NCBI GenBank assembly: GCA_900299145.1
Contig: OMIN01000123.1
Location: 1 to 39,301 of the forward strand
Reading direction: 5' to 3'
Length of the DNA stretch: 39,301 nucleotides
Source: Betaproteobacteria bacterium
GTDB lineage: Bacteria; Pseudomonadota; Gammaproteobacteria; Burkholderiales; SG8-41
The first letter of the stretch is position 1. Each line of letters starts with the position of its first letter. A program made the translations under genes and the position numbers. The notes beneath the pieces were generated by a model. The model was given only the letters and a program-made list of their open reading frames with translations. It was not told where the DNA came from and made no database searches. Below are positions 7,307 through 38,795 of this stretch, in pieces.

Positions 7307-7798
7307 ATGAGACACATCGTATCGGTATTGCTGGAAAACGAAGCAGGGGCGCTGTCACGCGTGGCGGGACTCTTTTCCGCGCGCGGCTACAACATTGAAT
7401 CGCTGACCGTGGCGCCCACCGAAGACGCGACACTGTCGCGCATGACCATCGTTACCAGCGGCTCGGATGAAGTGCTGGAGCAAATCACCAAGCAACTCAA
7501 CAAGCTCGTCGATGTGGTCAAGGTGGTCGACCTTTCCGAAGGCGATCACATTGAGCGCGAGCTGATGCTGGTGAAGCTGCGCGCGGTGGGCAAGGATCGC
7601 GAGGAAATGAAGCGCATGACCGATATTTTCCGCGGGCGCATCATCGACGTGACGGACAAGGACTACACGGTTGAACTCACCGGCACTTGCTCCAAACTGG
7701 ATGCGTTCCTGAAGGCCATCGATCGCACGGCGATTCTGGAAACCGTGCGCACTGGCGCGTCGGGCATCGGCCGTGGTGACAGAGTTCTAAAAGTATAA
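7307..7798 (+). CDS. ilvN: Acetolactate synthase small (regulatory) subunit
   Basis: A 163-residue regulatory subunit that activates IlvB and confers valine feedback inhibition. The N-terminal ACT domain (residues 2-75) carries ENEAGALSRVAGLFSARGYN, the valine-binding region. The second ACT-like domain occupies about 80-158. The length matches the long IlvH class. The stop codon TAA (7796-7798) lies inside a copy of the AT-rich 18-bp repeat described below. Confidence 0.95.
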   Translation: MRHIVSVLLENEAGALSRVAGLFSARGYNIESLTVAPTEDATLSRMTIVTSGSDEVLEQITKQLNKLVDVVKVVDLSEGDHIERELMLVKLRAVGKDREEMKRMTDIFRGRIIDVTDKDYTVELTGTCSKLDAFLKAIDRTAILETVRTGASGIGRGDRVLKV

Positions 7799-7814
7799 TA
7801 AAAACAAATACTTG
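7797..7814 (+). repeat. AT-rich 18-bp dispersed repeat, copy 1
   Basis: AATAAAAACAAATACTTG matches the consensus AATAAAAACAAATACTTA at 17 of 18 positions. It begins within the ilvN stop codon and lies about 107 bases before ilvC. It is one of eight copies in this window. Confidence 0.85.
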
Positions 7815-7921
7815 CGTAACAATCGTTTTTACGTGATTTTGCGTGTCAATCGTGCAGCACCGCTGCGCCGAGTCAGGCGTACCGGGGCCGCGCATGTTTC
7901 GAGTTCAACGAAGGGAACCTC

Positions 7922-8938
7922 ATGAAAGTCTATTACGACAAGGACGCCGATCTTTCACTGATCAAAGGCAAAAAAGTCACCATCATCGGCTACGGCTCGC
8001 AAGGGCACGCGCATGCGCTGAATCTTAAAGAATCCGGTGGCAAGGTCACCGTGGGCCTGCGCAAGGGCGGCGCGTCGTGGGACAAGGCGAAGAACGCCGG
8101 CCTCGCCGTCAAGGACGTGGGTGATGCCGTGCAGGGCGCGGATTTTGTCATGATGCTGATGCCTGATGAACACATCGCCAAGGTGTATCGCGAAGACGTG
8201 GCTCCCAATATCAAGAAGGGCGCCACGCTGGCGTTCGCACACGGTTTTAACATTCATTATGGTCAGGTCGTGCCGCGCGATGATCTCGACGTGGTAATGG
8301 TCGCGCCGAAAGCGCCGGGCCACACCGTGCGCGGCACTTACGCGCAAGGCGGCGGCGTGCCAATGCTGATCGCCGTGCATCAGGATAAATCCAAAAAAGC
8401 GCGCAGCATGGCGATGTCTTACGCGGCGGCTATCGGCGGCGGCAAGGCCGGCATTATCGAAACCACCTTCAAGGAAGAAACCGAAACAGACTTGTTTGGC
8501 GAGCAGGCCGTGTTGTGCGGCGGCTGTACCGCGCTGGTGCAGGCCGGCTTCGAGACGCTGGTGGAAGCGGGTTACGCGCCGGAGATGGCTTACTTCGAGT
8601 GCCTGCACGAATTGAAGCTCATCGTCGATCTGATGTACGAAGGTGGCATTGCCAACATGCGTTATTCGATCTCGAACAACGCCGAGTACGGAGACTTCAC
8701 CCGTGGCCCTCGCATCGTGACGGAAGAAACCAAAAACGAGATGCGCAAAATCCTCAAGGAAATCCAGACTGGTGCTTACGCACAGGAGTTCCTGCTGGAA
8801 AACCAGACCGGCGCGACCAAACTCAACGCCATGCGCCGCATAGGCCGCCAGCACGCCATTGAAGTCGTCGGTGGCAAACTTCGCGACATGATGCCGTGGA
8901 TCAAGCGCAATCGTCTGGTGGATCAGTCCAAAAACTAG
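7922..8938 (+). CDS. ilvC: Ketol-acid reductoisomerase
   Basis: NADPH- and Mg-dependent class I enzyme. It isomerises and reduces acetolactate to dihydroxyisovalerate, and acetohydroxybutyrate to dihydroxymethylvalerate. The protein has 338 residues. The Rossmann motif [10 protein letters not shown] starts at residue 23. The catalytic His is in [12 protein letters not shown]. The metal-binding knot domain begins near residue 185 with [13 protein letters not shown]. The ribosome site AAGGGA lies six bases before ATG. The 123-base gap after ilvN, holding repeat copy 1, may contain a separate promoter, but I see no strong one. Confidence 0.97.
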
Positions 8939-8951
8939 GATTGAGCCAGCA

Positions 8952-9012
8952 GGATTGAGGATAGAGGTCCGCAGTACAGTAAACTCAATCCTCGATTTTC
9001 GATCCTCAATCC
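8952..9012. repeat. Inverted-repeat junction element before psd
   Basis: GGATTGAGGAT (8952-8962) and ATCCTCAATCC (9002-9012) are perfect 11-bp inverted repeats flanking about 39 bases. That loop contains further partial copies (CTCAATCCTCGATTTTCGATCC). The psd ATG follows one base after the right arm. The layout matches the elements before panC and secD although the sequence differs. Confidence 0.6.
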
Positions 9013-9013
9013 C

Positions 9014-36865: not shown

Positions 36866-38035
36866 CTAGGCGGCTTTTTTGACAGCGTTGACGGCTTTTT
36901 GCGCCGCGTCCGCCATGTTGTTGCCCGACAGAATCGGCAGTCCGGATTCAGCGAGAATTTTCTTGCCCAGTTCGACGTTGGTGCCTTCCAGCCGCACCAC
37001 CAGCGGCACGCTTAACTTGACCTGGCGCGCGGCCTCGACTACGCCCTGCGCGATCACGTCGCACTTCATGATCCCGCCGAAGATGTTGACCAGTATCGCC
37101 TTCAGATGCGGATTCTTCAGCATGATTTTGAAGGCTTCGGTGACCTTCTCCGTCGAAGCGCCGCCGCCGACATCGAGAAAGTTCGCCGGCGAGCCGCCAT
37201 ACAGCTTGCAGATATCCATGGTCGCCATCGCCAGCCCCGCGCCGTTCACCAGACAACCAATGTTGCCGTCAAGCTCGATGTAGGAAAGGCCAAATTTCGA
37301 CGCTTCGATTTCCGCGGCATTTTCTTCATCCAGATCGCGCAGCGCGACAATTTCCGGATGGCGGAATAATGCGTTCTCATCAAAATTCATTTTGGCGTCG
37401 AGCGCAATGACCTGATTGTCGCCGGTCAGGATCAGCGGATTGATTTCCACCAGCGAGGCGTCGGTTTCATCAAACGCCTTGTAAAGCCCCTTCAGCAGAT
37501 CGCGCGCTTTTGGCACGGCATCCGCCGGCAAGCCGATTTTGCGCGCCATGTCTTCAGCCTGCGCATCGGTCAAGCCCGCCGCCGGATCAATCGTCACGCG
37601 GTGAATTTTTTCCGGCGTGTGAGCGGCAACTTCCTCAATGTCCATGCCGCCTTCGCTGGAGGCCATCAACACCGCGCGCTGCGACACGCGGTCCACCACC
37701 AGCGCCACGTAGTATTCCTTCTTGATGTCTGCACCTTCCTCAATCAGGAGGCGCCGCACTTTTTGCCCTTCGGGGCCAGTCTGGTGCGTTTTGAGCTGCA
37801 TGCCAAGGATGGAGCCGGCAAGCGACTTTAATTCTTCCGGCGATTTGGCGAGCCTCACGCCGCCGCCCTTGCCGCGCCCGCCGGCGTGGATTTGCGCCTT
37901 GACCACCCACACTTTGCCGCCGAGCGTGGGGCCAGCCGCGACAGCTTCGTCCACTGAAAAACACGGCACGCCGCGTAGTGTGCGCACGCCGTACTTACTG
38001 AGAATTTCCTTGGCTTGGTACTCGTGAATTTTCAT
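36866..38035 (-). CDS. sucC: Succinate-CoA ligase beta subunit (ADP-forming)
   Basis: Nucleotide-binding beta subunit of succinyl-CoA synthetase. It has 389 residues. An ATP-grasp domain begins [35 protein letters not shown] is the nucleotide-binding loop. LVEINPLI carries the metal-binding Glu and Asn. The CoA ligase domain includes [13 protein letters not shown]. The frame is open 64 codons upstream, but AGGGA five bases before ATG 38035 and the conserved N-terminus fix the start. It is the first gene of the sucCD-fds-fhs minus-strand run. Confidence 0.96.
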
Positions 38036-38441
38036 TTGGGTCCCTGACGAAGCACGCCGACAATTACGGACGTCGATTGCGAAATTTTTGGTACCTGTGC
38101 CAAACGGTTCGCGCGAATCTATTACAGCACTGCCGCGCGGGCCTTGACGGTGGTCAAGTGTGGGATTTCGTCCTGGCCTCGCGCCGTTGTGTGACCGCCA
38201 ACAACCAGTGCGCGGCGAGTATATCAAGTCGATTGGCCCAGCCTTGCCTGGCAGGGGCCACGGTAGCGCCGGTGTTACTGGTAGATCCGGAATTCAGTGG
38301 CTGGGAGAGTGCTGTGGAAAATTACCAATGTTTCTTATGCGAAATCTTCTTGCCGCGACAATTCGATTATTAATGCTGCGAAGCAACATTACGTTATTGT
38401 GACAATTAACGCGGCCAGCCAAATGGCAATAAAACTGGCGC
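38036..38441. other. Gene-free spacer upstream of sucC
   Basis: About 400 bases with no open frame I believe. It probably holds the sucC promoter. The best candidate is on the minus strand, with TTGTCG (38361-38356) and CATAAG (38339-38334) 16 bp apart, about 300 bases before sucC. That distance is long, so a nearer promoter may have been missed. Confidence 0.4.
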
Positions 38442-38471
38442 AAAAAAAGGCGCAATCCCGAAGGATTGCGC
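38442..38471 (-). terminator. Intrinsic terminator of the predicted small RNA
   Basis: On the minus strand GCGCAATCC and GGATTGCGC (9 bp perfect stem, 38471-38450) close a four-base loop and are followed by CC and then seven U residues (38448-38442). No annotated gene is transcribed into it from the right other than the predicted small RNA. Confidence 0.85.
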
Positions 38472-38528
38472 TGAAGATCCACCAAAGGAGGAGGTTTTGG
38501 AGGAGTATGTCCAGCGAGCGCTGAACAT
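38442..38528 (-). ncRNA. Predicted ~87-nt small RNA with CCUCCUCC anti-Shine-Dalgarno motifs
   Basis: A promoter (38535-38563) predicts a start at about 38528. The transcript would begin with a 9-bp hairpin (38527-38508; TGTTCAGCG paired with CGCTGGACA, one G-U). A single-stranded stretch follows with CTCCTCC (38505-38499) and CCTCCTCC (38494-38487), then the intrinsic terminator. This hairpin, unpaired C/U-rich seed and terminator layout is typical of Hfq-dependent small RNAs, and CCUCC motifs match ribosome sites of many mRNAs. An open frame crosses it (MFSARWTYSSKTSSFGG), but it runs through the terminator stem, so I do not believe it is coding. Family membership is not established. Confidence 0.65.
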
Positions 38529-38534
38529 GACTTT

Positions 38535-38563
38535 ATTATGCGCCCGGTAAGCCCTCCACGCAA
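38535..38563 (-). promoter_or_regulatory. Sigma-70 promoter of the predicted small RNA
   Basis: TTGCGT (38563-38558) and CATAAT (38540-38535) on the minus strand are separated by exactly 17 bp. It is one of the best promoter matches in the window and lies seven bases before the 5' hairpin of the predicted RNA. Confidence 0.6.
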
Positions 38564-38795
38564 TAATTTGCAGCGCATTTTTGTTGCTACGCGGCATATA
38601 TTTTATCAATCCTTTGCTTAACAAAAGTAACTTGAGCTAAAAGCCGCCTCAATTGGGCGCACAAGTTTGGCTAGCCAGCCATCGCCGGATACCTTCAGTT
38701 TCGCAGTTCGCGCTACCGTCGGGAAAGTTAACTAAGTATTTGTTTTATTGATTTTTTCGGATACTGCAAGCCCCATGTACTCGCAGTCGGCCAGC
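38564..38795. other. Gene-free stretch between the small RNA promoter and the psiF-type gene terminator
   Basis: About 230 bases with stops in all believable frames. It contains AT-rich repeat copy 8. I see no further gene or hairpin. Confidence 0.5.
38733..38749 (-). repeat. AT-rich dispersed repeat, copy 8
   Basis: Read on the minus strand this is AATAAAACAAATACTTA, the consensus with one A missing from the A5 run. The A-rich flank seen in copies 3 and 4 follows. It is not next to any coding gene; the nearest features are the predicted small RNA promoter and the downstream terminator. Confidence 0.8.

Follow-up and report, generated by a model that had tools for sequence, protein, structure and literature searches.

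The window analysed here is a stretch of 39,301 nucleotides from a Betaproteobacteria bacterium (contig OMIN01000123.1, positions 1 to 39,301), along which an AT-rich element built around an 18-mer recurs on both strands. The evidence set out below suggests that this element is probably a DNA uptake sequence, a tag by which DNA of the cell's own kind would be recognised in natural transformation. Its copies in the window, with bit scores from the profile described below, are as follows.

7788–7821 (18-mer 7797–7814), plus strand: uptake-sequence-like element, 41.3 bits, overlapping the stop codon of ilvH (acetolactate synthase small subunit, 7307–7798, from Pfam).
12252–12285 (18-mer 12261–12278), plus strand: element, 58.8 bits, overlapping the stop codon of an hda-like gene (11604–12266, from Pfam).
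17360–17393 (18-mer 17367–17384), minus strand: element, 51.6 bits, in the gap between a deoxynucleoside kinase gene and panB.
19181–19214 (18-mer 19188–19205), minus strand: element, 55.1 bits, in the gap between panC and a PNPOx-like gene.
23653–23686 (18-mer 23662–23679), plus strand: element, 49.8 bits, in the gap between a predicted gene (23290–23655) and tgt.
26885–26918 (26892), minus strand: weak copy, 22.0 bits, inside a predicted gene (25435–27315) that from the gene order we take to be secD.
29532–29565 (18-mer 29541–29558), plus strand: element, 44.0 bits, between convergent thioesterase-like and formate-tetrahydrofolate ligase genes.
35289–35322, plus strand: diverged copy, 29.7 bits, inside a predicted gene (34163–35782) on the minus strand.
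38726–38759 (18-mer frame 38733–38750), minus strand: copy with one A missing in its A-run, 29.6 bits, in a long intergenic region.

Two further copies on the plus strand, at 4712–4729 (GATTTTTCAATTAAATTAAGTACTTG, 17.1 bits by the profile) and at 31848 (9.9 bits), are doubtful.

A sequence-only reading of the window had placed eight copies at 7797, 12261, 17367, 19188, 23662, 29541, 35298 and 38733, five on the plus strand and three on the minus, and all eight are borne out. Seven of them are recovered by an ungapped scan allowing up to three mismatches to the 18-mer, which returned nothing in 100 dinucleotide shuffles. The statement that seven copies differ from the consensus at no more than one position holds with a proviso: six have zero or one mismatch ungapped, and the copy at 38733, with three mismatches ungapped and an A-run one A short, joins them only if a gap is allowed. 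The copy at 35298, TTCAAAAACAAATACTTG, has four mismatches to the 18-mer, yet scores 29.7 bits by the profile, for which the reversed control gives no site at 22 bits or more. Throughout, the control is the pattern or profile read backwards. The A-rich block said to extend the similarity is likewise real, but it is not confined to the third, fourth and eighth copies; nearly all sampled copies carry it.

The genome to which the window belongs (G000; 5.51 Mb in 158 contigs, 99.69% complete) contains 890 copies with two mismatches or fewer, 443 forward and 447 reverse, against one (1 and 0) for the reversed pattern. The sequence-only reading had held that few further copies elsewhere in the genome would tell against it, and the copies prove to be numerous. 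We sampled 439,235 bases of this genome, comprising 20 stretches that are consecutive tiles from seven contigs, together with the window. Here, 14, 26, 21 and 18 copies have 0, 1, 2 and 3 mismatches, respectively, and the control has 0, 0, 0 and 1. A 38-column profile built from 78 of the sites in this sample, and used with a cut-off of about 20–22 bits, identifies 103 sites at 22 bits or more; because it was scored on its own training sequence, the fair comparison is with the reversed profile, which finds none. Scaled up, these figures correspond to some 1290 sites per genome, or one per 4.3 kb or so.

In the orientation used by the sequence-only reading, the element has the asymmetric layout WAAAAAWANTY-AATWAAAA-CARATASTTA-YRWWW. 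The core, CARATASTTA, is preceded by two A-rich tracts at columns −9 to −4 and 3 to 7, which lie about 11.5 bases, or about one helical turn, apart, and it is followed by a weaker AT-rich tail. Columns 4, 5, 8, 9, 15 and 16 show little or no variation among copies with up to three mismatches to the 18-mer. The information content is 43.4 bits per site, a figure somewhat raised by the choice of sites through the profile itself, of which 30.3 bits lie in the 18-mer and 10.6 bits in the upstream tract; 13.1 bits would be enough to locate 1290 sites. This excess suggests that the copies are actively driven towards the consensus.

The distribution of the element among relatives was surveyed in 74 genomes of the family, falling into nine genera (g1 to g9, of which g1 is that of the window), using the pattern AATWAAAACARWTASTTA with up to two mismatches. 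The motif is abundant in 13 of 14 genomes of g1 (216 to 1159 matches), in the single genome of g6 (626) and in all 21 of g7 (77 to 305), and it is present in all three of g8 (32 to 94, controls 2 to 3). The fourteenth g1 genome, G009, is near background. In the remaining 35 genomes (g2, g3, g4, g5 and g9), there are 0 to 5 matches each, except in G014 (20 against 3 for the control). The motif is thus abundant or present in four genera of the nine, whose 39 genomes (14, 1, 21 and 3 from g1, g6, g7 and g8) we refer to as the motif clade, and near zero in the rest. A wider survey of 300 genomes sampled from the order, allowing at most one mismatch, gave no more than four matches in any of the 291 genomes outside the family, compared with 839 in G000. 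At up to two mismatches, the motif matched in 4 of 80 named loci and the control in none. The window's PanC is 91% identical to the PanC of two metagenome-assembled genomes (MAGs), one titled Betaproteobacteria bacterium UBA5216 and the other Bordetella parapertussis; the latter title is evidently a mislabel. Carriage by phages was considered and set aside: exact matches occur in 93 viral_contigs stretches, with one copy each among the 80 listed, and we read them as chance.

The element varies from genus to genus. Variants were taken from matches to the fixed pattern (73, 48, 15 and 17 sites in G000, other g1 genomes, g6 and g7, respectively), which in g8 gives only three matches in 100 kb; iterated profiles for g6, g7, g8 and G009 were discarded, as they converged on AT-rich noise for which the reversed control scored equally high. 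The preferred core is RATAS in G000 and AATAS and ATTAS in other g1 genomes. The base following the core is C in g1 and g6 and T in g7, the samples from g6 and g7 being small.

The reading as an uptake sequence had been one lead of the sequence-only reading, which pointed to competence genes as the place to look. It predicts that genomes bearing the motif have transformation genes and that the motif decays once these are lost. Across the family, ComEC (PF03772) is matched in 68 of the 74 genomes and DprA (PF02481) in 70, a few of these matches being partial, mostly at contig ends. Within the motif clade, ComEC is found in 37 of the 39 genomes (all but G009 and G062) and DprA in 38 (all but G009). 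G062 also lacks a nearby lolC, so that its comEC region is probably missing from the MAG. In the genera without the motif, ComEC was not found in G027, G087, G092 and G093, nor DprA in G027, G034 and G061; in another such genome, G033 of g2, ComEC matches lie in three different frames (G033:C66, about 5064–7948).

The case of G009 carries most weight. This genome, 97% complete, is the only member of the motif clade in which the motif is near background, and no other of the 39 lacks both ComEC and DprA. Its motif counts are 8 against 3 for the control, 28 against 18 with the family pattern, and 3 against 2 with the profile in 86.7 kb. Codon usage in G009 differs, and its genes were therefore read by tblastn and from open frames instead of with the gene caller. 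On contig C49, with gene names assigned by eye, lolC, lolD and an alkA-like glycosylase gene are followed directly by a relA/spoT-like gene; at the equivalent locus of G013, a further gene and comEC intervene before the latter. On contig C60, topA comes straight after a diverged LysM-type gene (32% identity), without the dprA that separates the two in relatives. Since comEC and dprA have gone from between contiguous neighbours, we conclude that these are losses by G009 and not gaps in the assembly.

The motif fades, then, in the one relative that has lost two key DNA uptake genes, and for this reason the repeat probably serves natural transformation as a tag for self-recognition. The genome-wide counts and the competence genes together favour a DNA uptake sequence, which would mediate preferential uptake, and we assign this reading a probability of roughly 0.8. 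It is supported as well by the layout and excess information of the element, its occurrence mostly between genes and in both orientations, the even spacing of the sites, their retention in place beside diverged flanks, their apparent origin by substitution, and the variants preferred in different genera. At the cell surface, the type IV pilus would read the tag, most likely through one of its minor pilins, and DNA bearing it would be taken up preferentially; ComEC would pass one strand into the cell and DprA would assist its recombination. The A-tracts may serve in bending or melting the DNA. Because tagged fragments would be the ones that recombine, tags created by point mutation would build up with time, mostly between genes where they are harmless.

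ComP is the receptor for the DNA uptake sequences (DUS) of Neisseriaceae, and a minor pilin is predicted to read the uptake signal sequences (USS) of Pasteurellaceae, according to the account in PMC12616744; minor pilins are for this reason the natural candidates here. The ComP_DUS family of minor pilins (PF16732) scores over its cut-off in 31 of 36 genomes of the family and in none of 14 control genomes, and the G000 protein reaches 60.7 bits against a cut-off of 27.3. In the loci read by eye, its gene heads an apparent minor-pilin operon, pilE-fimT-pilV-pilW-pilX-pilY1. We considered this ComP-type pilin as the obvious receptor, but the family is also present in genera without the motif and does not discriminate, so that its presence alone is uninformative on specificity. 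The minor pilins matched by the ComP_DUS family are of two kinds, one ComP-like and the other PilE-like, mostly with four cysteines, and they differ between species of one genus. The four-cysteine kind occurs in some motif-bearing genomes; this comes from best-scoring matches only and supports no conclusion.

Several observations weigh against a DNA uptake sequence. The decisive correlation depends on a single clear loss, that in G009, and this genome has changed in other ways: it has shifted to 47% GC (against 60%) and to a size of 4.0 Mb, and only 9 of the 17 genes of the panC block are found in the G009 stretch covered, whereas five relatives each have all 17. Other genes of G009 have therefore been lost or moved as well, perhaps including one for a DNA-binding protein. 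Beside the place of comEC, it also lacks two genes that most relatives have, the further gene seen in G013 and a small gene that is present in 8 of 10 comEC loci compared. A drift towards AT is, on its own, no obvious reason for the disappearance of a motif that is itself AT-rich. The motif-free G027 (86% complete) is also without both ComEC and DprA, and five other genera of the family carry the two proteins without the motif, from which it follows that competence does not imply the motif. G075 has the fewest copies in g7 (77 against 13 for the control), a GC content of 47% and a comEC split mid-gene between two frames (G075:C4, about 5404–7813); the split is possibly an artefact of assembly, and copies of the motif persist in this genome. 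As to the pilin, PF16732 is matched in motif-free genera and weakly (29.9 bits) in G009, whereas it was not found in the motif-rich G008 (62% complete) and G011 (84% complete), and the solved chains that match the G000 protein are other pilins and pseudopilins. Finally, unlike many DUS and USS, the sites are mostly intergenic and rarely form close inverted pairs of the kind that act as terminators in those systems, 4 of 95 intervals being shorter than 1 kb.

The alternative that survives best, although we regard it as unlikely, was the other lead of the sequence-only reading: that the element is a binding site, recurring every few kilobases, for a chromosome-organising protein of the nucleoid-associated or domain-forming type. 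Sites that are dispersed, mostly intergenic, in both orientations and kept in position among relatives would suit such a protein, as would A-tracts suggestive of bending, and the cognate protein may have been among the other genes lost by G009. The even spacing fits as well. Over 95 intervals, the coefficient of variation is 0.63, compared with means of 1.28 for sites placed at random between genes and 0.87 when no gap may hold more than one, and none of 1000 simulations under either model is as even; the simulations put all sites between genes, although roughly one real site in five falls inside a predicted gene. What an organising protein does not predict is that comEC and dprA should both be absent from the genome poor in the motif, nor would it need 43.4 bits per site where 13.1 suffice. 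We also looked for KOPS-like polarity and rejected it: relative to the GC skew of each stretch, 55 sites point one way and 48 the other, unlike segregation motifs. The sole stretch of the 21 in the sample with no site, L049 (G000:C31:40001–60000), holds on reading a peptide-transport/amidase cluster and an IS3-like transposase pair; as a single case, this would fit recently acquired DNA.

A transcription signal, whether promoter, operator, terminator or messenger RNA element, is suggested by the intergenic position of the sites, often adjoining stop or start codons, and is rejected as very improbable on context and orientation. Gene context was assigned by a custom gene-calling script, by which some 13% of the G000 sample is non-coding. 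Of the 103 profile sites, 52 fall in tandem gaps, 14 in convergent gaps, 12 in divergent gaps, 23 in coding sequence and 2 at the edge of a stretch; of the coding sites, 12 come within 30 bases of an end of a predicted gene. The density is lowest where only promoters are expected: 12 sites in 14.3 kb of divergent gaps, against 52 in 26.7 kb of tandem and 14 in 8.9 kb of convergent gaps. The window copy at 29541 lies between convergent genes and is therefore not a promoter. In tandem gaps, both orientations occur, 29 sites running with the genes and 23 against them. By Pfam search, the genes beside the window copies have no common function. The orthologous gap after ilvH, which has a site in three of seven genomes, carries it in the opposite orientation in G006, and a gap near comEC holds sites that point one way in g1 genomes and the opposite way in g7.

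A transposase acting on a miniature mobile element, or on a repeat of the repetitive extragenic palindromic type, could also scatter near-identical copies by the hundred, an origin we likewise reject, at still lower odds. Neither a hairpin nor terminal repeats are apparent on reading the asymmetric motif, no folding having been run; to that extent, the letters agree with the absence of a hairpin claimed by the sequence-only reading. Similarity tapers gradually at the edges of the element, and its spacing is more even than random. More tellingly, place and orientation are kept across species although the flanks have diverged. Of 20 genomes readable across the gap that separates the kinase gene from panB, 13 (12 of g1, including G000, and G018 of g6) retain a site there in the same orientation, with the rest of the gap diverged; G009 has an apparent degenerate remnant, and the other six, of g2, g7, g8 and g9, have no site. 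The gap after panC has a site at 10 bits or more in 12 of 14 readable genomes (G000 included), always in the same orientation, and that after hda has one in 5 of 15. In G020:C60, from a genome of g8, both the gap following the dgk-like gene and that following the hda-like gene are occupied by another, longer repeat-like insert, which is rich in CACAGAG/CTCTGTG. Two of ten mid-gene sites were checked against proteins of solved structure. The peptide encoded by the motif in a CopA-type ATPase aligns to 3rfu without gaps and to 3j09 with a one-residue end gap; that in UvrA aligns to a solved homologue with a three-residue gap. Neither of the two shows the 12-residue insertion expected of a mobile unit, which points to substitution, and no insertion signature was seen in the orthologous gaps or in these two copies.

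That the motif, being AT-rich, reflects chance or base composition is refuted by the 890 copies against 1 for the reversed pattern, the 103 profile sites against 0, and the maximum of four matches in each of the 291 genomes of other families.

Uptake sequences are described for two families only, Neisseriaceae and Pasteurellaceae, in the sections of PMC3630211 and PMC7811141 drawn on here, and a paper on transformation in Verminephrobacter discusses DUS, in the portion concerned, by reference to the same two (PMC4212676). Among the matches listed in searches of a set of open-licence papers, we found no earlier report of the motif letters, or of uptake sequences in Burkholderiales/UBA5216. We think it reasonably likely that, with this element, sequence-specific DNA uptake has arisen independently for a third time, here in an uncultured family of betaproteobacteria. 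The system would have a layout convergent on that of the USS, a new core, a putative minor-pilin receptor, dialects, and decay on loss of transformation. If so, self-recognition in transformation would be seen to evolve repeatedly, and phased A-tracts beside a core would be a convergent solution to it. The family provides a natural series, with genera that have the motif and genera that do not, dialects, and a lineage whose competence genes are lost, in which the accumulation of uptake sequences and the pilin that reads them can be tested by comparison.

Among known systems, nucleoid and segregation motifs such as matS, KOPS and Noc-binding sites are short, dispersed and conserved; the present element has far more copies, more information per site and no GC-skew polarity, and its loss coincides with that of competence genes. 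With the DUS of Neisseriaceae, a family that GTDB places in the same order as the host, it shares the character of a genome-wide tag with dialects and the presence of a ComP-family minor pilin gene. It differs in that this pilin gene sits in a minor-pilin operon and occurs in motif-free genera too. The DUS, moreover, is described in PMC12616744 as one unbroken motif, about 13 bases long at most, and CTG is conserved across all of its dialects according to the part of PMC3630211 used here, whereas the reverse complement of columns 8–10 of the element is YTG, with T at 70% and C at 27%.

The likeness to the Pasteurellaceae USS is closer. In the relevant parts of PMC7811141 and PMC12616744, the USS is present in hundreds to thousands of copies, combines its core with two neighbouring AT-tracts that are spaced by about one turn of the helix, forms lineage dialects and evolves by point mutation, all of which are features shared with the element. 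The core nevertheless differs, reading TAASTATYTG on the reverse strand, and the profile contains no GCGG or CCGC. The element is also sparser, at about one per 4.3 kb compared with about one USS per kb (PMC7811141, in part), lies mainly between genes, belongs to a betaproteobacterial host and is a putative tag. Overall, judged by its letters, the element is USS-like in layout and in sequence is neither DUS nor USS.

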